Shown here: positions 3,284 through 64,000 of the stretch, one piece after another
Numbering within the stretch: the stretch's first letter is position 1
How the letters are laid out: each line of letters begins with the position of its first letter
Assembly (NCBI GenBank): GCA_037974965.1
Contig: JBBPFI010000011.1
Location: 992,001-1,056,000 of the forward strand
DNA length: 64,000 nucleotides
Reading direction: 5' to 3'
Source: Dacryopinax spathularia
Lineage: Eukaryota; Basidiomycota; Dacrymycetes; Dacrymycetales; Dacrymycetaceae
Program-made: the position numbers and the translations under genes
Notes under the pieces: generated by a model
Databases searched by the model: none
Told to the model about the DNA's origin: nothing
The model's input: the letters and a program-made list of their open reading frames with translations, nothing else

Positions 3284-4895
3284 ATGAACAGTTTAGTAGC
3301 ACATTTCTGGCGGATCCTACTGCTCAGCTGCCTGGTCTCTGTTGTCCAAAGCTCTATCATACATGTTTCAAGGGACACAAATGGGGACCGGTTGGCTCGC
3401 GGCCTCCCTCCGTTAAAGCCCAAAAGATTGTACGGCATAACACCCACAGGTGAGGGATCTCTTCTTTTCGCTTGATCCAATTGCTCAGCGTTGCGCATTC
3501 CTCAGGACCCTCTTTAGCTCGCAGATCTGGGTTTGGACTCTCCCTGGCTCTATTGGAAGCTGCTGATCGAGTCCCTAGTCTTCCCACGAACACTTTCGTG
3601 ATAGCGGTGTACAAATCTGGACAGATAATACCATTCTGCTATGTTGGCAACCTCTCACCTGGAAGCGGGCTGGCGTGCACAAGCCTTGATAAAGCCTATT
3701 CGTTCGTTTCCTCGCAGCCGGTAGGGTCGAGTACGCCTGCATCGCTTATTGTGACTGCTCCGGTGCGTCTGGTGGCTTGAAGCATTTTTTTCCAACTGAC
3801 AACGGTATCTCTATCGTAGTCGACCGCCCAGGGTCAACTGCTGACCGCCGAAGCTATGGTTGCGGACCAAGGCTCGACGTCTTCCTAGTACGACATGTTT
3901 GTTTACATATGTTCTGTGCTGCGTGCCGTAATTTTCGGCATCCGATAGCCGATCTAGGTAATATACGTCCCTTATATTCGTATATGCACCCGCTGTTATA
4001 ACCGGAGTCCGCTTATCGGACTTCGGGACTTTTTGTACTATAACATTTCAGGGCTTTCGCCCTAGTGAAAAATGCATCTCTTACCACTCCTTATCCTTGA
4101 CGCCTAAGTCCGATATCGAATATCGGTCTTCACTCTCATTTACTGCCTAACCAACTTCATTACTACTACTTTCAATCCTACTACCAACATAACTACCGGC
4201 GCGACCGATATTGCTTATCGGCAACCTGGCTACGATACCTCGCATACCTCTTTACTCCTAAATACTGGGGGAACAGGTCAGTTCCGCAGATTTTGATTAG
4301 CTCAGCGCCGTTCTCGTTTACGACATGGAGAACGTTCAGTCCAGTAGGTGCATTCACTCCGTGAGTCGGCTACCGTTTACAAACGGTTTCCAGCGGGACC
4401 GAATGGCCAACCTGCTACTGGCGTTCTCAATGGGTGGGGCCCAACGACGGTCTTCTATGAGACGGACGTCGTAAGTCCAAGCATCTTCAATACAGTGCTT
4501 TTTCGTGGCTAGGCTGTTTCTGTTCGGAGGATGGGAAGAATTCATGCTGACCATTGCTGCAGTTCTACACGGCCGTTGATGGTACCATCACGTCGGTATG
4601 GATTAATCCCACAGGTTCCAAAGATGGATGTGAGTGAAGTCCTTCGAGCCAAAGACCGCGGAAACGATGAGATCTGATTGTGAACGTCGTTTCCAGCAAG
4701 CATACCCGTGACTTTCTGGCTGCCAGGCAACGCCAATTCGGCATCAGCGGTTCTCTACGGGTCGCGTGACCTTACGTTCCCTACCTCGAAGGGCTGGGAT
4801 CCTATCGCTGTGGTGAGTTTTCTGTCGAGCCAAATGGGCCCGAACCATTCTGTTTACCGGCTGCTTTGCAGACTCTCGTGGCTTTAGCACATTGA
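3284..4895 (+). CDS. secreted TNADRFARGLPPL-family protein, copy 2, with a solo LTR in intron 3
   Basis: Exon 1 encodes a signal peptide (MNSLVAHFWRILLLSCLVS) and TNGDRLARGLPPL; the usual NAT sequon is replaced (RLYGITPTG). Exon 2 has the two-cysteine module FCYVGNLSPGSGLAC and QPVGSSTPASLIVTAP. Exon 3 reads QGQLLTAEAMVADQGSTSS and ends near 3887 at a GTACGA donor. The acceptor of the next exon (GATTAG) is near 4300, and exon 4 reads LVYDMENVQSS. The 366-bp solo LTR lies wholly between them; without it the intron would be about 43 nt, normal for this family. Later exons: GPNGQPATGVLNGWG...FYETDVV, FYTAVDGTITSVWINPTGS, PVTFWLPG, and a last exon at 4872-4895 (TLVALAH). The gene may therefore still be spliced and expressed. 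Confidence 0.7.
3915..4280 (+). mobile_element. solo LTR of a Ty3/gypsy-type retrotransposon
   Basis: It starts TGTGCTGCG and ends GAACAGGTCA, and matches the 5' LTR at 55940-56304 along its whole length with about 27 differences by eye (roughly 93% identity). It is flanked by GTTC on both sides (3911-3914 and 4281-4284), a likely 4-bp target duplication. No internal element sequence remains, as expected after recombination between the two LTRs of a full element. It contains two 17-bp CCG-N11-CGG sites, at 4110-4126 and 4205-4221. The divergence from the full element indicates a separate, older insertion. Confidence 0.92.
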
Positions 4896-46643: not shown

Positions 46644-47152
46644 GAGGTAATTGCCAGAATGCCCCGTTTCGGACGCGGAATTGCTACAATACCCTGCCCG
46701 GGTGCAGTTTGCCAGAATGCCCCAAGGCTCGGGGTCCTGCTGGCTCGCGCGACGCGGAATTGGGACCCTAGCGGTGAAGTGTACAAAAAATTCAATGTAG
46801 AAAATTACAATCGTACAGCAAAGGTATAACAAGTTATGACATGCTTGTCAATAGAAATAAACTTTGAGGTCTTGAACATACGGCTTACAACCTCCTTTGA
46901 GATTAAACCCCTGCTTTGATTCACTAATTTGGTCTTTTCTACTTGGACTGCAGAGCATAAACAGCTATTTTTCTTAACTGTTCCAGTAGTAATGCCAGCC
47001 GCCATTTTTTGTACACTTTACCCATCAGGGTCCCAATTCCGCGTCGCGCGAGCCAGCAGGACCCCGAGCCTTGGGGCATTCTGGCAAACTGCACCCGGGC
47101 AGGGTATTGTAGCAATTCCGCGTCCGAAACGGGGCATTCTGGCAATTACCTC
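46644..47152. mobile_element. Mutator-like MITE with ~150-bp terminal inverted repeats, 509 bp
   Basis: The ends read GAGGTAATTGCCAGAATGCCCC and its exact reverse complement. Arms 46644 to about 46790 and about 47005 to 47152 are nearly identical in inverted orientation, differing only near their inner ends. A perfect 10-bp duplication CTCACGCCAC flanks the element (46634-46643 and 47153-47162). Long arms plus a 9-10 bp duplication fit the Mutator (MULE) superfamily. TTGCCAGAATGCCCC occurs twice in each arm. The roughly 215-bp A/T-rich core has no transposase. Near-identity of the arms suggests recent movement. Confidence 0.85.
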
Positions 47153-52146: not shown

Positions 52147-55100
52147 ATGAGTGAGAATACAGTGGAACAGTTGGGTATAAGGAAGAGATACATCTTCAGA
52201 GGTGCGTAGCTTAGCTCTAGGGCTTGTTCAACGACTGATCTCCCTGTAGGCGCTAGAGTGGAAGGGTTGCTAGTACGCAAGCTGCCGAAGCTGGAGGGCA
52301 AGTACGTGTTATCGATCGACATCGGCGCTCGGGGAGGCTGGATGACGAGGGAGCTGAAGACGAGGGGGACAGTCGCGGACTGGAACGAGCAACAGGATCG
52401 ACATGAATTGTGCGCCCCCTTGTTAGCATGATGCGACCGGCGAGCTGACTGTCGAAGCAGTGAGAGCAGTCCCGCAGAGGATGTTCAGATTTCTTTGTGG
52501 ATGAATCGCGCGTTTCGGAACGCACTGCAACTCGGGGAGGTTGTGCTAAGCCTCGATGAGTGGATAAGCGCCGTACAGCGTACGTCCCTTCGTATACCCT
52601 GTTGGCTCTTTCTGATGTTCCGCTGCGTTCCAGCAACCATTTTCGTCCTGAACACTGCCGCCAAGATCACAAATCCCATCACACTCCAGGTGTTCATAGA
52701 AGAAGTCATGAAAGAGGCAAGGGAGTCAAAGGAGGAAGGCGACGTACAGGCTGCTGAACGAGCAGAGGCAGTGGAACGGGCCGAATCGGACGCTGAGGCG
52801 ATGCACATGGGCAGAGCGGTTGGCCGGCTGGAAGCCGTCGTCGAACAAGGCAGCAAGGCACAGGATTCGGTGTCCGCCATAGCGCAAGCGTGCGGATCGC
52901 TTCTGGATAACCTAGAGTGGTTCGCGGACGTGATGGATACGGTAGCAGAGGTACGTATGGAAAAATACACGTGTCGTGCAACTCTAAAATCGGCGGATCA
53001 GGTCCATCCTTACGCCAAGTTGGCTTGGACGGTCTTCTCTGCGGCATACAAGGTGGGCCCCTCGTTTCGCCTCAGGCATCCCTCCTCATCCTTTTACAGC
53101 TATTGGAGCGCCAGACCAGCCTTGATAGCAGTATCTTCGACCTGCTCGAGACATTGAAGGACGTGCACCAGTTCATTAAGGATGCAGCTGCGGTCAAGCA
53201 AATAGCCGCCGCACCTGGACAAGACACGCTTCGTGAACGCGCTCTTTGTCGCCTAAGCAGCCAAACGATCGAGTGTGCCCACTTCATCTCAACCTACAGC
53301 AAAGACAAGAGCTTCTGTATGTGTTCTGCTCAGCTCTTTGAGAGCGCAATGGTTGATGCTGTCATAGTCGTCCGATTAGTGAAGCAAACCGGGTCTACTG
53401 CAAAGGACACGATAGGAAAATACGTGGAGAGCTTCGAGAAGCTGAAGAAAGCCTTTTTGGATGGGTCCCATGTGCAGATGGAGATCGTTGCGTTCAGATT
53501 GGTTGGCAAACTTGACGACCTCTGTGAGCCCCAGCTTGTCGTTGTTAGATTCTCGCCTTTGCCGACCATCACGCAGCTGCGACGCTCGACGTGCACCAGA
53601 TCCCATACGTCATTGAAGCCGGCTACGAGCCCAGTAAACGCTGCCTTGCCGGGACTAGAATTAAGCTCCTGGACGAAATAACGGAATGGGCGTCCAGCGA
53701 GGATCCAAGTACGCCTCGTGTCCTCGTCCTGGCCGGGCCCGCTGGAACTGGCAAATCCACGATTGCCCATACGGTGGCTGGACGGTTTGATGATATAGGC
53801 CAGCTCGGTGCAACCTTTTGCTTCAACAGGAGCGAGGCAGCAAGGAGGACGCCTGCGTCGTTGTTCCGCAACATCGCACGTGACCTGTACAAGAATCGTC
53901 CTGCGTTCAAGCTCGCGCTGGCACAGTCCATCGCAGATGACGCCGACGCGTGTGGAACGAAGGACGTGGCTCGGCAGTTCGAACGATTCCTCCTCGCTCC
54001 CGCCAACATGCTCCTCGTCAGCGGCACGGTCTTGATCGTCATCGACGCTCTTGACGAAAGTGGAACAGCCCGTGATCGAGAGGGCTTGTTATCCATTCTT
54101 AGTGCACGACTGAAGGACCTACCGCCGATGTTCCGGTTTCTGGTCACATGTCGACCGGAACTGGACATTCTTGAAAGCATGGAACCCTCGTACGATATCA
54201 GGCTGCATAGGATGCCGACCGTGAAAACCGAGGAGACTCTGCCGGCCGACATTCTCCGCTACATCCGACACAAGCTCTCAGATAAGGCAGGCAACCTGCT
54301 TACCGGCCTCGACGATCACTGTTGCCGATCATTGCGCGAACGAGCCGAAGGCCTATTTCAGTGGGCATTTGTCGCGTGCGACTTCATTCTTGGAGAGCGA
54401 CGCGCGCGTACGATGGCTGGGAGGCGATATAAGAAGCTAATGGCTTCTCCGCGAGGGGGTAATGCTCTAGACAACCTGTATGAGGCGGTGCTATCGGACC
54501 TGTTCAGCGATGGGGATGCACTCAACGCGCTCAAGATCTCGATGGGGATGCTCCTGTTCGCTGTTGAGCCTCTTTCTCGACAAATGCTTCGCACCATGGT
54601 CGGCTATCTTCAACCAGAGATGGAGGTGGATATCGAATATTTGAAGGATGACACGGTTCTGCCCTCCTTGGGTTCCCTCCTCACCGGTGTCGACAGTGAG
54701 ACTCAGCCAATTCGGCCTCTCCACTCCTCGTTGCAGGACATGTTGTGTAGCCAAGAGCGGGGTGGAAAGTACTATGTTGGAAGTGTAGTGAACCATACAC
54801 GGCTGGCCACGTCGACGCTCGGTCTGCTGAACGATCGATTACACTTCAACATGGGCGAAGTACGCAGCTCATATCTCCTCAATCGCCAAGTCGACGGTCT
54901 GGAGACCAAGGTGGGGCAAGAGCTGCGTTACGCATGCCAACACTGGGGATATCATTTGTCGAGTTGCGATGCAGATCTTAGGAAGGATGGTGCGGGCGCC
55001 GTACTCGGCGAACTGCTGCGTACCCTTCTCCTGGAGAAATTATTGTTTTGGATCGATGCCGGGAGCGTGGCTCGCATTATTGCGTCCCTCGCTCCCTGCC

Positions 55101-55939
55101 TGTCCTTTGCTCTGACGAAGATACCCGTAAGTGTTCTTTCGCGTTTGTCGATGGTCACTGAGCTCCTGACATAGACCGATGAGACCGCTCTGATCGCCAT
55201 GGCCAGGGATGCGCAGCGTTTCTTGCGACAATTCGGATTCGTTATTGGGCAATCTGCGCCCCATGTGTATGTCTCTGCCCTCCTTTGGACTCCTTCCCAA
55301 GTCCCGCTTTACCGCTCCAAGATGGGGAAATATTGGAGAGGCGGGAGGATTACGTCTGGCGGAGTATCCTCTTGGCCGGCATTGCATCGAATTCTGCACG
55401 GACACACGAATTGGATCACCTCCGTCGTGTTCTCCTCGGACGGCGCGCGGCTCGCATCATGTTCGAGGGACGAGACTGTGCGCCTCTGGAACGCGGAGAC
55501 GGGCGACCCGGTCGGCGAGCCTCTCACGGGACACACGGATTGGGTCAACTCGGTTGTGTTCTCCCCGGACGGCAGGCGGCTCGCCTCGTGCTCGGGCGAC
55601 CGGACCGTGCGCCTCTGGACCGCGGAGACGGGCGACCCGGTCGGCGAGCCCCTCACTGGACACACGGATGCGGTCCGCTCGGTCGTGTTTTCCCCGGACG
55701 GCACGCGGCTCGCCTCGTGCTCGGAAGACCAGACCGTGCGCCTGTGGAATGCGGAGACGGGCGAACCGGTCGGCGAGCCTCTCACGGGACACAAATATTC
55801 TGTCACCTCGGTCCTGTTCTCCCCGGACGGCGCGAGGCTCGCCTCGTTTGGCTCGTACGACGAGACCGTGCGCCTGTGGAACGCGGCCACGGGCGAACCG
55901 GTTGGCGAGCCTGTCATGGGACACACGTATTGGGTCAAC
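52147..55939 (+). CDS. NACHT-WD40 (NLR-like) gene, WD40 tail interrupted by an LTR retrotransposon
   Basis: It starts MSENTVEQLGIRKRYIFR at 52147; an intron then leads to GARVEGLLVRKLPKLEGKYV (C2-like segment), ending DRHEL at the intron position shared with the NLR at 24 kb. Helical exons follow (AERAEAVERAESDAEAMHMG; LLETLKDVHQFIKDAAAVKQ). The NACHT domain is in the large exon from about 53.6 kb: Walker A AGPAGTGKST, Walker B VLIVIDALDESG. After an intron near 55130-55175 come WD40 repeats: four complete and the start of a fifth (GHTYWVN), where the 5' LTR begins at 55940. The repeats are nearly identical in DNA (129-132 bp period from about 55402). The rest of the propeller, if present, would lie beyond the element. 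As it stands the product would end shortly inside the LTR. Confidence 0.83.
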
Positions 55940-56304
55940 TGTGCTGCGTGCCGTAATTTTCGGCATCCGATAGCCGATATTGGTAATAAACGTCCCTTAT
56001 ATTCACATATGCACCCGCTGTTATAACCGGAGTCCGCTTATCGGACTTCGGGACTTTTTGTACTATAATAGTTCAGGGCTTTCGCCCTAGTGAAAAATGC
56101 ATCTCTTACCATTCCTTCTCACTGACGCCTAAGTCCGATATCGCGTATCGGTCCGCACTCTCATTACTGCTTAACTAAATTCATTACTACTACTGTCAAT
56201 CATACTACAAACGTAACTACCGACGCGACCGATATTGCTTATCGGCACCCGGGCTACGGTACCTCGCATACCTCTTTACTCCTAAATACTGGGGGAACAG
56301 GTCA
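55940..56304 (+). repeat. 5' LTR, 365 bp
   Basis: TGTGCTGCG...GAACAGGTCA, directly after GTCAAC of the NLR gene. It contains two 17-bp sites CCGATA-N5-TATCGG at 56135-56151 and 56229-56245, and seven CCGATA/TATCGG hexamers in all. About 93% identical to the solo LTR near the left end. Confidence 0.93.
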
Positions 56305-56306
56305 TT

Positions 56307-56322
56307 TGGAGCCCAACGCGAG
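56307..56322 (+). other. candidate primer-binding site
   Basis: TGGAGCCCAACGCGAG begins two bases after the 5' LTR. It starts with TGG, as expected for pairing with the CCA end of a tRNA. The tRNA was not identified. Confidence 0.6.
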
Positions 56323-56572
56323 GGGTTATAGCCTGGATCTGCCACGTCGATAACGCGCACGGACCAGTTGGCAAAAATCGGCCAAACTGACTACTCGGAG
56401 CGGACGCAATTATCGGACGCAAATCCCCCGGTGGATTCCGCGAATTCGTAGAAACACCGAAACTTCCATCTCTCCGTTTACGACTCCGCCCGACTCCGCC
56501 GACGAATACATACCGGATATCGACCTATCATCACACCTACCAAGTCGGACAGAATCGGAACCGGACTCAGAT

Positions 56573-58939
56573 ATGCCGGCCGATAATCAAAATGATCCCG
56601 ACAACCGCGGGGTTGGTCAGGGTCCAAACGACGGTGATCACGGCGCAGTTCCCGAAAATAGACGGCCGCGATATCCGATGCCCCTACGGACGAGTCCCAA
56701 TGCGCCAGCTCTCGTACAAGGGACAGCCGATAATGTTGTCCGATACCTCGAGGACGTGGAACAATGTGCGGAGTATGCGGAGCTGGACCGGGGAGAATGG
56801 CCGAAATGGTGTCTCCGATATGCACCCCCGAAAGTACAGGAGATCTGGTCGACATTACCGGAGTCCAAAGGTCGAGACTACAACGCCTTCAAAATGGCGG
56901 TACTACGGCTATATCCAGGCGCTGTGGACGATAAAAGACGATATACGAAACTGGATCTGGAAAGGCTGGTCAGTCGGGCCGCCCTTATCGAAATGGACTC
57001 CCGTAATCAGCTCGCCGAGTACCTTCGCCAGTTTTCGGTTATCGCGGAATACCTGGAGGAAAGAGGAAAGCTATCGGTCGACGACCGTGACCGATTTTTC
57101 ATCAGAGGTTTCCACCCTGATTTTCAGGATGCCCTACGCAACCGATTGGCGATAAAGGAACCGGACCATCATTATCCTATGGACCCCTATACGATGAAGT
57201 CCGTTACCGAGGCAGCAGAGCACCTTCTCTATTCTACACCTGCTACCGCTCCCTATATTCCTATCGATTGGGATTCGGGCCCTGTAGGTACGAAAGGCCC
57301 GACGAAGCCGAAAACAGAGGAGAAAACCGATATCAAGGTCGAGCCGAGCCTGCAAATTCAGGAGCGCATGCTTCAGTTAATGGCCCGGTTAGAGGGGAGA
57401 ATGGACAATATCGCGCGAAACCAGCAGCAACAACACTATAATCCGCCGTACCAACAGACGTTTCAGCGACAACCGCCTCCCCATATGACTGGACCTGGAA
57501 TCGGCGGAAACCCGATAAACCGAAGCCAGCGCTGTCTATGGTGTGGCCACACCGACCATCTCATCCGAGACTGCAGCGACCTTGAGGAACATATCCGGAA
57601 TGGATACGTTATTAGGAGTACCAATGCCGGAGGACGTGTCACCTTACCGGATGGCCGATACGCCCCAGCTTCTATGGGTGACACCCTAAAAGAGCGAACC
57701 CTGGCCTGGCACGCTTCTAATCCCGGGCATAGGGTACAAGACCTAAACTCCAAGGCAGGTGTTCCCAGCCGAACAGCTCAACCCGTCAATCTACTGCACA
57801 ATATCGGCATTCCACCAGCGATAACGGTCGATATCCCGCATGATGCCCTTCCCTTTCAGGCATTACCGGTCAATATCCTTCACAACCTCGGGGACGCCGA
57901 TAACGTTATCGGCCAGCCGGAGGAGGAGTTAGAGAGAACGATTGCCGTGTTGCAAGCCCAATTGGACCGTACCAGAGTGGGCAGGCGGACCGATAAGGCC
58001 CCCGCGGGTCGGCCCGTTCCCTTTCGGCGACAACCTCACAAAGAGTATGACAACCAACCCGATAAAAACAATCGGATGGGCGAGGGTACCGGGGCAACCG
58101 AACCGAGAGAAGAACAACAAGCCGACAAAGGCGATAAGACGGACACACGTCCTGACACCAATCCTTATGGGAGGATGCAATTTCGTAGCCCAGCCGAGAA
58201 CGAAGCATTGGTTGATACGGTTATTGCCAACTTCATGAAAACTCAGACCTCGGTGTCGCTGGCGGAGCTGTTGGCTGTTTCTCCACAGGCACGAAAACAT
58301 CTGCAACAACAAACGCAATCCAAACGTATCGCCAAGGCTCCTCCGGTTCTAAACGCGTTCACCGGCGCGATAATAGAAGAGGAAGTGGATCAAGAACCCG
58401 ATACGAGCGACCGATATAGACTTCCGTCGATTATTGAACACGTCTGGCACGTATCGGGAGCTCGAGACGCCCCGAAAGGAATTGTCGTGGGGCACAACAT
58501 GATCGGATTGCGCGATATAGATGTGCGGGTGGGTGATGACGACATCACGGTCACCGGTTGTCTTGATTCAGGCTCGACAATGATTCTCCTACATAGTCAT
58601 ATCGCGAGACGCCTACACCTTCATTACTACCCGGAGGATAAGGTCGGAGTGCGATCTGCAAATGGCGAGATCAGCTATACCAAAGGCTGCATTCGCAATT
58701 TGAGGATATCGGTGGGAACGCTTACCGGTCTCTTTCAAGTTCAAGTATCGGACGATCTGCCTATACCGCTTCTTATCGGTCGCCCTTTCCTTGCCCTGTT
58801 CCGGTGCGAATCCAAGGACCACCCTAGCGGCTACCAGGAACTAACGCTTACGTGTCCCAACACTCATGAGCAACTCGTCGTACCGACAAAAGCCTCGACC
58901 ATCGAATCCAGCTCGGATTTTTACAAGTCAATGAACTGA
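56573..58939 (+). CDS. gag/protease region of the LTR retrotransposon
   Basis: A long open region. It contains a retrotransposon gag-type helical domain (around WPKWCLRYAPPKVQEIW and YLRQFSVIAEYLEERGKL), a single zinc knuckle CLWCGHTDHLIRDC (C-X2-C-X4-H-X4-C) that binds element RNA in particles, and an aspartic protease segment near the end (CLDSGSTMILL, LLIGRPFLALF). Treated as part of the element, not a host gene. Confidence 0.88.
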   Translation: MPADNQNDPDNRGVGQGPNDGDHGAVPENRRPRYPMPLRTSPNAPALVQGTADNVVRYLEDVEQCAEYAELDRGEWPKWCLRYAPPKVQEIWSTLPESKGRDYNAFKMAVLRLYPGAVDDKRRYTKLDLERLVSRAALIEMDSRNQLAEYLRQFSVIAEYLEERGKLSVDDRDRFFIRGFHPDFQDALRNRLAIKEPDHHYPMDPYTMKSVTEAAEHLLYSTPATAPYIPIDWDSGPVGTKGPTKPKTEEKTDIKVEPSLQIQERMLQLMARLEGRMDNIARNQQQQHYNPPYQQTFQRQPPPHMTGPGIGGNPINRSQRCLWCGHTDHLIRDCSDLEEHIRNGYVIRSTNAGGRVTLPDGRYAPASMGDTLKERTLAWHASNPGHRVQDLNSKAGVPSRTAQPVNLLHNIGIPPAITVDIPHDALPFQALPVNILHNLGDADNVIGQPEEELERTIAVLQAQLDRTRVGRRTDKAPAGRPVPFRRQPHKEYDNQPDKNNRMGEGTGATEPREEQQADKGDKTDTRPDTNPYGRMQFRSPAENEALVDTVIANFMKTQTSVSLAELLAVSPQARKHLQQQTQSKRIAKAPPVLNAFTGAIIEEEVDQEPDTSDRYRLPSIIEHVWHVSGARDAPKGIVVGHNMIGLRDIDVRVGDDDITVTGCLDSGSTMILLHSHIARRLHLHYYPEDKVGVRSANGEISYTKGCIRNLRISVGTLTGLFQVQVSDDLPIPLLIGRPFLALFRCESKDHPSGYQELTLTCPNTHEQLVVPTKASTIESSSDFYKSMN

Positions 58940-59127
58940 GATTTACTCAGAGAGACGTTTTCGCCGCAATCCAGTATACCGTTCCGATACCCGAAATTCC
59001 GTATATAGACTTCAGTCTGGTCGAAGAGACCTACCAACACGATCCGATACACAATACCCTTGCAGTCCGAAAATACAAAAAAGTAGAGGACCGTGTCAAA
59101 CCGGTCCCTACCGTCCACCCCGAGCAT

Positions 59128-60759
59128 TTGAAGATCCGCCGCCGATTTCCCTCGAACCCCTTAGAAAACCTCCAGCCATTGCCGCGGAAACCACCGATAT
59201 TTTCTCCCGGGAAACGATTAACCCAGGAACGATATGAGGCCCTTAACATAAACAAATATGGGTTCCTCTGGCCAGAAGAAGAAAAGCTGGTCGCCTGGAT
59301 CTTTCGGACACACGAAATGGCGTTTTCGTGGACGGAATCCGAAATTGGTCGATTTCGCGACGATTACTTCGATCCGGTAATATTCCCGACCGTCGAACAT
59401 ACCCCCTGGCAGGAACGTAACATTCCGATACCCCCAGCCATTATCGACGATGTCGTACAAGTCCTACGTGATAAAGTCGCAGCAGGCACCTATGAACCCT
59501 CACAGTCGTCTTATCGGAGCCGTTGGTTCGTGGTACTCAAGAAATCCGGCGAATATCGTCCCGTTATCGATGCACGGCCGCTTAACGGCGTCATGATCAG
59601 GAGCTCATCGGTCCCGCCCCTTACCGAGCATATCCTCGAAAGCTATGGGGGAAGGGCTTGCTTCGGCCTGTTGGACTTTTATCACGGTTTCGAACAACAC
59701 GCCCTGGCGCCTCAGTCGAGAGACTATACCTCATTCCAATCTCCTATCGGTCCACTCCGATATACAGTTGCGCCCATGGGAGCCCACAATATGCCAGGAA
59801 TCATGCAGGACAACGTCAATTTCCTTTTCGGAGACGAAATGCCACATATCACGACCCCGTTTATCGACGACCTAGGCGTGAAAGGCCCTGCAACCCGATA
59901 CGAACAAAACGAGGGCTACGAGACCATCAAAGGCAATCCGGGCATACGCCGCTTCGTATTCGAGCATCTCGAAAATATGAATCGCATCATTACGCGAGCT
60001 GAACATGCAGGCGCGACCTTTTCGGGACCAAAAGCCGAGATATGCGTGCCCGAAATGATCCTTTTAGGATATCGGTGTTCCTACAACGGCCGACATCCGG
60101 ATCCATCGAAAGTCCAGAAGATACTGAACTGGAAACTCCCCTGCGAGAACTTATCGGAGGTGCGAGCCTTCCTGGGCACAGTTGGCATCATGCGTATCTT
60201 TATACGTAATTTTGCCGAAAAGGCGAGGCCCTTGGAGAGACTGAAGCAAAAAGGAGTTATTTTCGAATTTGGAGACGCCGAAATGAAAGCTGTCAAAGAT
60301 CTCCAGAAGGCTGCGCAAGAAGCGGAGACGAATAATGTTTTGGTCCCTATCGATTATCGGTCCAAGCGAAAAGTCATCTTGGCTGTCGACTCCTCCAATA
60401 TCGCCTGTGGTTACGTACTATATCAACTCGACGATAAGGGCCGTCGGCGACCCAGTCGATTTGGCTCTATCGGATGGAATGACGTCGAAAGCCGATATTC
60501 GCAGCCGAAACTGGAGCTTTACGGCGTGTACCAAGCCTTAAAGGCAATGCGAATATGGCTTATCGGCTTATCGGAGTTTGACTTAGAAGTGGACGCCAAA
60601 TTCATTCAGGGCATGTTGAACCATCCAGATATTCAACCAAACATGGTTATCAACAGATGGATCGCTTGGATTCACCTCTTTAATTTCGTATTGGTACATG
60701 TACCGGCAACACGACACACGGCCCCAGACGGATTGTCCCGACGACCTCCAGCCGATTAA
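59128..60759 (+). CDS. reverse transcriptase/RNase H region of the LTR retrotransposon
   Basis: Shows the RT fingers and palm segments (PVIDARPLNGVMIRSS, FGLLDFYHGFEQHAL, RYTVAPMGAHNMPGIMQ, PFIDDLGVKG) and an RNase H segment (ILAVDSSNIACGYVLYQL, QPKLELYGVYQAL). The order places it in the Ty3/gypsy group. Confidence 0.9.
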   Translation: MKIRRRFPSNPLENLQPLPRKPPIFSPGKRLTQERYEALNINKYGFLWPEEEKLVAWIFRTHEMAFSWTESEIGRFRDDYFDPVIFPTVEHTPWQERNIPIPPAIIDDVVQVLRDKVAAGTYEPSQSSYRSRWFVVLKKSGEYRPVIDARPLNGVMIRSSSVPPLTEHILESYGGRACFGLLDFYHGFEQHALAPQSRDYTSFQSPIGPLRYTVAPMGAHNMPGIMQDNVNFLFGDEMPHITTPFIDDLGVKGPATRYEQNEGYETIKGNPGIRRFVFEHLENMNRIITRAEHAGATFSGPKAEICVPEMILLGYRCSYNGRHPDPSKVQKILNWKLPCENLSEVRAFLGTVGIMRIFIRNFAEKARPLERLKQKGVIFEFGDAEMKAVKDLQKAAQEAETNNVLVPIDYRSKRKVILAVDSSNIACGYVLYQLDDKGRRRPSRFGSIGWNDVESRYSQPKLELYGVYQALKAMRIWLIGLSEFDLEVDAKFIQGMLNHPDIQPNMVINRWIAWIHLFNFVLVHVPATRHTAPDGLSRRPPAD

Positions 60760-62488
60760 CGACGAAATCCGAAATCGATTCCCTGAGACAGATGAAGAGG
60801 ACTCATTCGCATTATCGACAGCATTCCAATTGGAACTGGCTAGTCGAAAACCAGTTCCAATTTTTTTCGGCCCCCCGGAGGAGATATTACCGCGCACCGA
60901 AAAGACGAAAAATGCGGACGAAAAACTCCAAAAGGTGATTCGATACTTGAGGAACATGCGCAGACCGAATGGAATGAATGATGCTCAATGGAAATCGTTC
61001 CTCGAACTCACAAGGAGGTACTTCCTGGTCGGAGAGGATGATTTATACAAGAGACAACCAAATGGTCAACATCGGCTCTATATCGCTTATCATCAGCGCC
61101 TGAACGTCTTGCGACATCTTCACGACGATATTGGACATCGAGGCTATCGGACGGTGTACCAACACGCACAACTTCGATTCTTCTGGCCAAATATGAGCGA
61201 CGATATCAAGTGGTACTTACGGACGTGCTTAGAGTGCCAAAGGCAACAAATGCGTCACGTTATCATTCCGCCTACAGCACAACGCCCTCAACCGTTATTC
61301 GTACGGGCCTACTGCAATACGATGCTCATGCCGGTCGCGAAAGGCCGATATAGAGGAATGCGATATATATTACAGGCCCGATGTTCGCTCACCCATTGGC
61401 CTGAATACCTGATATGCCGAAAGGAAACCGCAGACATTATCGAGGACTTTCTCTATAAGAACGTTCTATGTCGATGGGGAACGATAACCGAAATTGTCAC
61501 CGACAACGGTACTCCGTGGGTCAAGGCAGTCCAGCAGCTGAGCGATAAGTACGACGTTACCCATATCCGAATATCGAGCTATAACTCGCAGGCCAACGGA
61601 GCGGTCGAACAGAGCCATGGAAGCGTGAGAGAAGCGATCGTGAAACTTTGCAAAGGCAATATAGACAAGTGGCCCGAGGTAGTGCCTTCGGTTTTCTGGG
61701 CGGAAAGAATCGCGATACATAGCTCGACTGGGATGTCCCCTTTCTACATGGCGCGCGGAATTCATCCGATATTGCCGATGGATATCACACAGGCAACTTG
61801 GCTTGTCCCTCCACCCGACAACCTGTTATCGCGTCAGCAGCTTATCGCGTATCGGGCGCAACAGCTCCTCAAACGACCGGAAGACCTGGACGACATGGAG
61901 AACCGGATCATGAAGTCACGATACCAAAATATCGAAAGATTCAAAGAAAAATTCGAAGGATTGATATTCGATCATGAGTTCAAAACTGGGGACTTGGTAT
62001 TATTGAGAAACAGCAAACACGATGGACCATTACGGGACAAAACGAAACCGCGATATATCGGCCCATATATCGTGGCTCGGCGAAACGCAGGAGGCGCCTA
62101 TCATATCGCTGACTTGGACGGGACGATATTCCGTCATACCGTCGCACAGTTTCGCGTCATTCCATACCTAGCCCGGGGAGATTTATCTCATATCGTCAAT
62201 ACCGTCTTGGAGAACCTGGACAAAGCCAAATTCACCGATAACGATCCCGATTACCTGCCCGATAATGAGCAAGAGCAGATCGACCGCGACGGAGAAGGGG
62301 ACTCAGAGCTGGGAGATGTTGGAGCTGATGTGGGCGATAACGTAGAAGGAGAAGAAGAAGAAGAAGGAGAAGAAGGAGAAGAAGGAGAAGGAGCAGAAGG
62401 AGAAGCAGGAGGAGAAGTAGAAGGAGAAGGAGAACGGGCAATTGCGCCTACATATCGGAACAACGCCGATAAAACAACGCTGGTGTAA
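60698..62488 (+). CDS. integrase region of the LTR retrotransposon
   Basis: Includes the N-terminal HHCC zinc segment (HLHDDIGHRGY ... CLECQRQQ), an integrase core (EIVTDNGTPWVKAV, SSYNSQANGAVEQSHGSV), a C-terminal chromo/SH3-like segment (LIFDHEFKTGDLVLLRNS, RYIGPYIVARRNAGGAYHI) and an acidic tail of Glu/Gly repeats (about 62340-62430). Confidence 0.9.
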   Translation: MYRQHDTRPQTDCPDDLQPINDEIRNRFPETDEEDSFALSTAFQLELASRKPVPIFFGPPEEILPRTEKTKNADEKLQKVIRYLRNMRRPNGMNDAQWKSFLELTRRYFLVGEDDLYKRQPNGQHRLYIAYHQRLNVLRHLHDDIGHRGYRTVYQHAQLRFFWPNMSDDIKWYLRTCLECQRQQMRHVIIPPTAQRPQPLFVRAYCNTMLMPVAKGRYRGMRYILQARCSLTHWPEYLICRKETADIIEDFLYKNVLCRWGTITEIVTDNGTPWVKAVQQLSDKYDVTHIRISSYNSQANGAVEQSHGSVREAIVKLCKGNIDKWPEVVPSVFWAERIAIHSSTGMSPFYMARGIHPILPMDITQATWLVPPPDNLLSRQQLIAYRAQQLLKRPEDLDDMENRIMKSRYQNIERFKEKFEGLIFDHEFKTGDLVLLRNSKHDGPLRDKTKPRYIGPYIVARRNAGGAYHIADLDGTIFRHTVAQFRVIPYLARGDLSHIVNTVLENLDKAKFTDNDPDYLPDNEQEQIDRDGEGDSELGDVGADVGDNVEGEEEEEGEEGEEGEGAEGEAGGEVEGEGERAIAPTYRNNADKTTLV

Positions 62489-62671
62489 AAATCCAGAGTC
62501 AGAGTCCGCTCATACCCATACCCCAGCGGCCGATATACCGATATCCGAAATCATCACACTCGTTTGGTTTTTCTCACTATTTTCTTTCCACCGTCTAACT
62601 ACGACAAAAACCTATCTAAGGCCGCACCAAGAAGTCCGAAAACCGAAATCCTCCGATCCGATAACACCGAC

Positions 62672-64000
62672 TCACTCATCCTGGAGGAAGTGGACGAAGG
62701 AGGTGATCTTCGCCGGGTGCCTTATCGGCTGGCCGAGGGAGCGCTCGTTGGCGTCGATCGGGTTCACGATAAACGTGACCTCCTCCTCACCAGCCTCCGT
62801 AGCCACGATGAACCGGCGCCAGCTGTGCATATACATCTCGTTGAAGGCCATCAAACGACGGGCCTCAACTTGGATGCGGCGAGCAGCAACAGCTGTAACC
62901 GAAATCAGCCGAAATCCAATATCGGGCCGTGAAAATTACTTACTGCGGGGCAAGGTCACCATACGGAAGTCCGGCGTCATCGAAGGACGCCAGGCGTATC
63001 GGTCGTACGCCTCGATGTCGCTATCGGTGATGACGGGCTCGCGGGAAGTGCTGGCGACCGGCTTCACCTCCTTGACTTCCGATACGGCCCTCTTGGCCTT
63101 TTTCGCGGCCGGACCGGGCTCCCCATTGTCATCGCGGGCACGTCCCTTTCGGCCACGTCGATTCGCTACCGATACGGTCAGAACGAACGATATCGTTTTG
63201 AATATCGGACTTACAGGGCGCGGCATACGAGCAAGTGGTGCCTTTGATCTGGCACTGGTCGCAGATGATGCCGGCGATCTCCTTACCGCGACCCTTCGGA
63301 TTGAACTTGATTCCTCCGGTGCAGAGGATATCGGCCTTGATGCACGAGTCGCACTGTGGTCGATTGTCAGCGTTGTCCGATAACCGAAAAGAGGGACTTA
63401 CGGCGGTATCGTTCTTATAGCCGCGGCGGAAATGCGGCTTACCGAAGAGCTTCTTCATCCGGTCGGTCCAACCTTCGGTAACCACCTCCATGGGCGTGAT
63501 AACGCTCATGTTGAGGCCGGCGGGGCGATAAGAAGGGTCGGCGTCGTCCTTCGAATATGGTTAGCCAAGCCCGATAACCGAAAACCGATAACTTACGACA
63601 TGCCACACCCACTCCTCCGGATGGTCTTCCCTTTTCTCCTGCTCAATGAGTCAGCACGGTCGCCGATAAACGATAAAAGATCACTTACCGCCGTTTTCGC
63701 GGCCGGAGTCACAGCGACGGCAGGCCTTTTCGCCGCGGCAGCCGTAGAGCCGGAGTCCACACGGACGCTCTTACCGGTTTTCGGCGCGGCGGTCTCCTTG
63801 CCCTTGCCCTTGCCCTTGTCCTTGAGCCAGGCAAGCTCCTTCTCGATATCCGCCAAATCGGGCTCCGGCTCCTCCAAGACGGCAGCTTCGTCCTTCGCGT
63901 AGAACTCCTCCAGCGCGATTTCGGCAGCTCTCGTTCCGGCTCTGTTCCGGAACTTTTCGTCGTAGGGCTTAAAGCCCGTCCACTCCTCGTGGATGCTCCT
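62672..64000 (-). CDS. antisense intron-containing gene with a Zn2Cys6-like cluster, inside the retrotransposon region (5' end beyond window)
   Basis: Exon-like open blocks on the minus strand are separated by about 50-nt introns with GTAAGT donors (donor sides near 63688, 63597, 63400, 63209 and 62940). They carry an acidic segment (EPEPDLADIEKELAWLKDKG), a Lys/Gly-rich stretch, a cysteine cluster at 63353-63231 (CDSCIKADILC and CDQCQIKGTTC, i.e. C-X2-C-X6-C-X19-C-X2-C-X6-C), a basic nuclear-localisation-like stretch (PAAKKAKRAVSEVKEVK) and a final block (MAFNEMYMHSWRRFIVATEA) ending at 62672. The cluster matches the fungal Zn2Cys6 pattern except for a longer middle loop. Because the element-specific CCGATA hexamer bias continues through this region, I infer that it belongs to the element rather than to the host flank. 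A host gene next to a degraded element end is the alternative. Confidence 0.65.

Follow-up and report, generated by a model that had tools for sequence, protein, structure and literature searches.

Sequence-specific anti-silencing is already known from the VANDAL transposons of Arabidopsis, and antisense open reading frames (ORFs) with predicted DNA binding are known from the plant Retand elements (PMC11963269), as described in the excerpts of the respective papers used here. In those on VANDALs, the motif of the VANC21 protein is given as a sequence of nine bases, YAGTATTAY, found mainly in non-coding DNA, in one orientation and often in tandem repeats (PMC5735166); motif density matters, related VANC proteins differ in their motif, and binding accompanies methylation loss (PMC5735166; PMC10398659). 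As for the gain of such motifs, the excerpts judge simple base substitutions a poor explanation and favor tandem repeats (PMC5735166). In the open-licence literature, as represented by titles and the beginnings of abstracts, the matches listed include neither an antisense zinc-cluster gene nor an element-wide sequence “word” in any fungal retrotransposon, and a term look-up in the Laccaria transposon survey (PMC3411680) finds no mention of antisense or zinc ORFs. Here we describe such a word, together with a predicted antisense gene, in an LTR retrotransposon of Dacryopinax spathularia.

The window, that is, the whole stretch of 64,000 nucleotides analyzed, contains at 55940-64000 part of an element of about 9.8 kb in total, which we will refer to as clade A. 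This element is a Ty3/gypsy LTR retrotransposon, as follows from its protease, RNase H and integrase domains, scoring above the Pfam cut-offs, together with matches to the reverse transcriptase (RT) and the integrase core below them; the domains stand in Ty3/gypsy order between direct 365-bp LTRs with 4-bp target duplications. The 5' LTR (55940-56304, plus strand, TGTG...GGTCA) has the target duplication CAAC on both sides, and the 3' LTR, past the window end at 65409-65773 in window coordinates, is 100% identical to it by BLAST. Between them, the plus strand carries an ORF for gag and aspartyl protease (56354-58939; Pfam Asp_protease_2 and DUF4100), another for RT and RNase H (58870-60759; RT_RNaseH and RT_RNaseH_2 above the cut-off, RVT_1 below) and a third for the integrase (60620-62488; Integrase_H2C2 above the cut-off, rve below); a AGAAGGAGA tandem repeat at 62344-62434 encodes the acidic Glu/Gly tail of the latter. 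At 3915-4280, the family is also represented by a solo LTR (366 bp, plus strand, GTTC target duplication on both sides). One clade A copy (loci L010 and L011, contig C13, 38041-47863) has an inner LTR bordered on both sides by element-internal sequence, an LTR-internal-LTR-internal array of the pattern expected from unequal recombination. The element of the window is inserted in the WD40-repeat part of an apparent NACHT-WD40 (NLR-like) host gene (53549-55939, judged by eye), whose WD40 frame halts at the 5' LTR; the next letters, NSVVFSPD, resume past the 3' LTR (locus L006) with the CAAC duplication. Just before the element, this gene holds three WD40-repeat DNA copies at 129-bp spacing (55400-55847), the later two being 86 and 83% like the first, and further upstream the window contains a 126-bp inverted repeat (46644-46769 and 47027-47152), 100% complementary, with 257 nt between its arms.

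The initial annotation of this DNA had singled out two palindromic sites in the LTR, and the pattern is larger than that. The over-represented unit is the hexamer TATCGG/CCGATA, not the palindrome (dyad), and it occupies the whole element. In the 8,062 bp of the element within the window, counted from 55939, it ranks first among over-represented hexamers, with 66 copies, 29 forward and 37 reverse, where dinucleotide composition predicts 6.7 (z 22.9); a further 23 in the 1,773 bp past the window end bring the whole element to 89. This corresponds to about 9 per kb, the density in host DNA being 0.40 per kb. Both strands and both coding and non-coding DNA are covered: the 66 copies are split into 7 in the 5' LTR, 20 in the gag-protease ORF, 15 in the RT part (58940-60759), 9 in the integrase part (60760-62488), 3 in the gap after it and 12 in the antisense gene (see below) as far as it lies within the window. 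At the LTR borders of three copies, 1-2 hexamers per 1.5 kb were counted outside against 9-17 inside, and the top hexamers of six 8-kb host windows reach z values of 4.6-10.0 (the highest for GAGGAG) against the 22.9 of the element. The sense ORFs contain 44 hexamers, compared with a mean of 8.2 and a maximum of 18 in 300 synonymous-codon shuffles, so that neither the protein nor codon usage explains them. The bases flanking the hexamers show no strong conservation, and one-letter neighbors of the word are also raised in the element (TTTCGG 34 against 7.5, TATCGC 22 against 5.8, TATCGT 17 against 5.2). Direct TATCGG pairs at most 25 bp apart number 145 genome-wide, against 81 for the reversed control, and among the matches listed only clade A copies exceed two such pairs per 10 kb. 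Tandem repeats were considered as the source of the word and discarded, as none of the five arrays listed for the element within the window contains TATCGG/CCGATA. In a comparison of four copies, motif columns vary only slightly less than other non-coding columns (variable in 8/102 against 115/745, p 0.050), and in exons there is no clear difference between motif and other columns (p 0.31), which counts against the explanation that we favor below.

The genome analyzed (one genome, 29.2 Mb in 24 contigs) gave 85 matches with the RT as query. By the RT identity of the long matches, four clades were distinguished, namely A (98-100%), B (74-75%), C (68-69%) and D (54-56%), the remainder being shorter pieces and distant elements, mostly at 32% identity or less. 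The words are clade-specific. In one 9.9-kb stretch per clade, B shows TTTCGG (47 against 10.9 expected) and C shows TACCGC (39 against 5.1) and TAACGC (37 against 4.7); the clade A word numbers 12 in B (5.6 expected), 12 in C (6.1 expected) and 3 in D (5.2 expected). In cores of 5.5-6 kb, TTTCGG is raised in 5/5 B copies (21-26 against 5.6-6.7) and both C words in 3/3 C copies (TAACGC 26-30 against 2.8-2.9), each word having been chosen from the same data used for counting and the extra copies being replicates of the same families. Synonymous shuffles of the sense ORFs give a similar contrast, with 29 against 5.0 and 20 against 4.4 for the C words and 26 against 9.1 for the B word. All words of A to C fit TNNCGS. 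At sites of the RT frame where the amino acids of two clades agree, the word is common to just 2 of 28 comparisons, which argues for separate gains of the words, point changes being the simplest route. On the other hand, the excess in B is modest in one core (19 against 5.4, z 5.9), a result that counts against the favored explanation; AGAAGA-type repeats exceed TTTCGG in z in most B cores, and TCGCGA is raised too.

The word of clade D is palindromic, unlike the hexamers of A to C. CTCG-N3-CGAG is a dispersed dyad in two of three copies (12 against 0.75 in 9.9 kb, 5 against 0.39 in 6 kb); it is absent at N2 and N4 spacing and occurs twice in 51.6 kb of host DNA; the copy C3 has neither the dyad nor a clear word. 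Two clade D loci, L041 (contig C9) and L055 (contig C6), contain CGAG-N2-CTCG dyads besides the dispersed CTCG-N3-CGAG. No hexamer exceeds z 6.3 in three D copies or in four distant gypsy elements, the latter represented by one 5-kb piece each and belonging to three lineages (two are 78% alike in DNA), a sample of many. A separate dyad, TCGA-N5-TCGA, occurs in one distant element (4 against 0.22), which also counts against the favored explanation. In one distant element, about 0.8 kb separate the pol ORF from the 3' LTR, and this interval contains an antisense ORF of 221 amino acids.

Between pol and the 3' LTR, the clade A element carries on its minus strand a conserved antisense gene, which looks real on the grounds of nine predicted introns, purifying selection and a Zn2Cys6-like cysteine cluster. 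Its model extends from 65089, close to the 3' LTR and past the window end, to 62672, with 10 exons, nine GT-AG introns of 48-53 nt and 654 amino acids. Exons 4 to 1 are predicted past the window end, up to 65089; those predicted within it, all on the minus strand, are exon 5 (63689-64000, the exon extending to 64042), exon 6 (63597-63638), exon 7 (63402-63548), exon 8 (63215-63353), which holds the cluster and opens exactly at the first Cys codon, exon 9 (62944-63165), opening with the basic stretch that follows the cluster, and exon 10 (62672-62892), with the stop codon. The four-copy comparison adds to the model for exons 5, 6, 7 and 9, exon 10 is kept in the four copies, and all nine intron borders are kept in 4/4 copies, three of which have no internal stop and the fourth one. 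For the six pairs of these copies pN/pS is 0.14-0.21, and variable columns amount to 144 of 1,965 in exons and 62 of 456 in introns.

The usual spacing of Zn2Cys6 domains is C-x2-C-x6-C-x(5-12)-C-x2-C-x(6-8)-C. The cluster of clade A reads C-x2-C-x6-C-x19-C-x2-C-x6-C, followed by the basic stretch, and clusters in a like place read C-x2-C-x6-C-x20-C-x2-C-x8-C in clade B and C-x2-C-x6-C-x8-C-x2-C-x6-C in clade C; thus, the loop of C (8) fits the usual 5-12, those of A (19) and B (20) are longer, and all six cysteines are present. In B and C, the upstream intron ends at the first Cys codon and the intron after the cluster was read as phase 1, these introns being read by eye and the phase of the first one in B depending on the frame chosen for the preceding exon. 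We call the domain Zn2Cys6-like because the scores for Zn_clus (PF00172) remain below the Pfam cut-off of 21 bits, both in A (14.3 for the unspliced ORF, 9.7 for the whole protein, 13.9 for the cluster) and in C (12.4, with zf-CXXC at 13.6, likewise below the cut-off); the B cluster has no Zn_clus match in Pfam. Up to E 10, Pfam finds Zn_clus alone in the spliced A protein (E 1.3), TRP28 (PF04195) being absent, and eight antisense ORFs of clades B, C and D have no Pfam match above the cut-off. A match of DUF4211 on the unspliced antisense ORF (E 0.0024, 18.5 bits against a cut-off of 27) is absent from the spliced model and was set aside.

With tblastn, the A protein gives three co-linear weak matches on the antisense strand of B (E 0.07-0.6), but it matches a distant element equally weakly (E 0.54), and the antisense sides of C and D give no match; the link of the A protein to B and C rests on the cluster, the introns and the place. 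For antisense residues 420-654, no protein homologue was found at E ≤ 0.1 among 805 candidates; in a control for the presence of fungal relatives among the proteins searched, the RT matches 456 proteins, the named ones among the 120 listed being from Leucocoprinus, Candolleomyces and Armillaria. In viral contigs, two stretches matched a pattern and neither encodes a relative. Single-sequence structure models of the cluster are of low confidence (mean pLDDT 70.0 for C and 53.5 for A), and a sequence search of solved structures with the clusters gave no convincing match (best E 0.89 and 0.81).

Zinc clusters recognize CGG-like triplets. Clades A, B and C each have a TNNCGS word together with a cluster, and both the cluster residues and the words differ between clades, which favors the protein as the reader of the word. 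In the reading that we prefer, with a probability of roughly 0.45, the hexamer would be a half-site for the antisense zinc-cluster protein, whose binding along the element would oppose the silencing of its own DNA. The predicted Zn2Cys6-like protein would read TATCGG/CCGATA, many dense sites together would result in a family-specific occupancy of the element, and this occupancy may, by analogy with VANC of Arabidopsis, keep silencing off; in this way the element would mark its own DNA with an address code. Further points against it are the Zn_clus scores of A and C below the cut-off and the missing match of B, the long loops of A and B, the low confidence of the structure models, the D frames that show no two-part cluster together with the D copy that has no dyad, and the strand skew of the words in B and of TACCGC in C. 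The extension of this reading to the whole lineage is more tentative: a self-address of these fungal LTR retrotransposons, in which each family would possess its antisense protein and its word, synonymous codons would be recruited about every 110 bp, protein and word would switch together at family splits, and each protein would shield only its own copies.

The LTR palindromes bear on where such binding would act. The four exact CCGATA-N5-TATCGG sites reported by the initial annotation are all present, at 56135-56151 and 56229-56245 in the 5' LTR and at 4110-4126 and 4205-4221 in the solo LTR. The spacing, described as identical, is so for the inner N5, the distance between sites being 94 bp in the 5' LTR against 95 bp in the solo LTR; the center of the first site does vary (TCGCG in the 5' LTR, TCGAA in the solo LTR), and a copy on C7 adds TCGCC. 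A search with the 5' LTR of the window gave 12 matches, namely 11 LTRs at 7 places and one 43-bp fragment, and the 11 LTRs (one truncated) were aligned with the fragment excluded. The claimed conservation of both dyads across LTRs is borne out for site 1, exact in 11/11, and only in part for site 2, exact in 6/11 with an arm change in the other 5. The expectation that the arms would be more conserved than their flanks was not borne out: they are invariant in 12/12 columns at site 1 and 9/12 at site 2, yet 48 of the 349 LTR stretches of 17 bp equal site 1 in conservation and 257 of 367 columns are invariant, so that LTR conservation alone proves little. A third LTR site (55967-55983), found by the mismatch scan and in the LTR alignment, has two CCGATA half-sites in a one-mismatch dyad. 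Genome-wide, all 17 exact CCGATA-N5-TATCGG occurrences in 29.2 Mb lie inside LTRs of the clade A family, and the reversed control has no exact occurrence in the whole genome; tolerating one mismatch raises these numbers to 65 and 27. Within the window, 10 matches at up to two mismatches were found against 1.92 expected, a number that 0 of 100 shuffles reach.

As the unit of the pattern, the CCG-N11-CGG dyad was rejected, there being no preferred pair spacing over the element part of the window, where the N5 dyad occurs twice, both times within the 5' LTR. The Gal4 site is CGG-N11-CCG, relative to which CCG-N11-CGG is everted. The idea that these sites bind the antisense protein of the element itself is supported in part, without the dyad as its unit: the sequence makes the LTR dyads candidate sites that probably bind protein, and they may be dimer sites close to promoters, with the predicted Zn2Cys6-like protein under purifying selection. 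The main alternative is that the antisense protein binds the word but controls transcription via the LTR dyads, by activation or by a repression that limits copy number, the sites in the body acting as a decoy or dosage sink. It would suit the LTR being the part richest in hexamers (19.2 per kb), the presence of dyad site 1 in 11/11 LTRs, the occurrence in the B LTR of CCGAAA-N6-TTTCGG, a dyad of like layout in the word of B, and the beginning of the antisense gene model near the 3' LTR. For a promoter, however, synonymous-position sites over gag and pol are superfluous, yet 44 of the 66 hexamers lie in sense ORFs; the self-regulation through LTR sites proposed by the initial annotation likewise fails for most sites, as hexamers occur throughout the element, coding regions included. 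We consider transcriptional control unlikely.

Quite improbable, in our judgment, is a host protein as the reader of the word, for instance as a boundary factor or an activator, which the element would have evolved to attract. Clade D gives this explanation its foothold: two of its copies have a word, yet the zinc cluster was not found there, the long antisense frames of D being without a two-part cluster, and the D word thus needs another reader. Nonetheless, a single host factor would favor one word, whereas sister clades in one genome have different ones, and TATCGG/CCGATA is not in excess in the host DNA of the window (22 against 20.6 expected). More doubtful still is a coating by the antisense protein of the double-stranded cDNA of its own family, as an aid to nuclear import, protection or integration; the element-wide distribution of sites, which in A involves both strands, and the family-specific words would agree with it, and we know of no precedent for cDNA coating by such a sequence code. 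The least probable origin of the words is an RNA packaging or translation signal or a mutational bias, which the strand skew of the B word (12 to 35, of a kind that an RNA-level reading could use) and of TACCGC in C (29 to 10) would suit, but against which stand the near-even strands of A (29:37) and the even ones of TAACGC in C (18:19), the richness in the word of the antisense-gene introns (10 hexamers in 453 nt), the difficulty of imagining a hexamer-level bias that switches between sister clades, and Markov simulations of orders 1, 2 and 3 (200 runs each; means 7.0, 11.4 and 29.8, maxima 18, 20 and 48), which even at third order fall short of the 66 observed.

The findings suggest that selection acts on the DNA of an entire mobile element, through its codons, for a word that changes between clades. 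If the pairing of protein and word is true, sequence-specific anti-silencing, known from DNA transposons of plants, would extend to retrotransposons of fungi and there involve another DNA-binding domain, and clades A, B and C would constitute natural sets of protein plus word for the evolution of zinc-cluster specificity. Furthermore, the role of antisense genes in gypsy elements, an old question, becomes directly testable.

Among the known systems, the Tekay and Athila elements of sunflower resemble the present ones, according to the excerpts used, in encoding an extra conserved LTR-retrotransposon protein suggested to modulate silencing; the extra ORF of Tekay is situated at the 5' side and is likened to double-stranded-RNA-binding proteins, and no DNA word is described in these excerpts (PMC11728184). 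Retand is closer in architecture, being also Ty3/gypsy and having its antisense gene, with predicted DNA binding, in the interval from pol to the 3' LTR, but its antisense ORFs carry TRP28 (PF04195), which the clade A protein is without, and the excerpted text describes no lineage-specific element-wide word (PMC11963269). For the combination in a fungal LTR retrotransposon, or for a word spread through coding sequence, the titles and abstract openings among the matches listed contain nothing. The fungal Zn2Cys6 domain (Gal4-type, PF00172) shares the cysteine cluster followed by a basic stretch, most closely in the spacing of C, and the present clusters differ from it in their scores (9.7-14.3 bits, where the cut-off is 21, and no match for B) and in the long loops of A and B. 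VANDALs are DNA transposons (MULE-type), whereas the clade A element is an LTR retrotransposon; compared with the motif of VANC21, its word is a hexamer, lies in coding DNA too, is nearly even between strands and has no word-bearing tandem repeat. Anti-silencing has been shown for VANC, and for the clade A element we infer it by analogy. As far as the excerpts describe VANC/VANDAL, both systems have a family-specific short motif, dense in its own element, rare elsewhere and differing in related families, along with a transposon-encoded protein, here a predicted one, that has highly variable regions (PMC5735166; PMC10398659).
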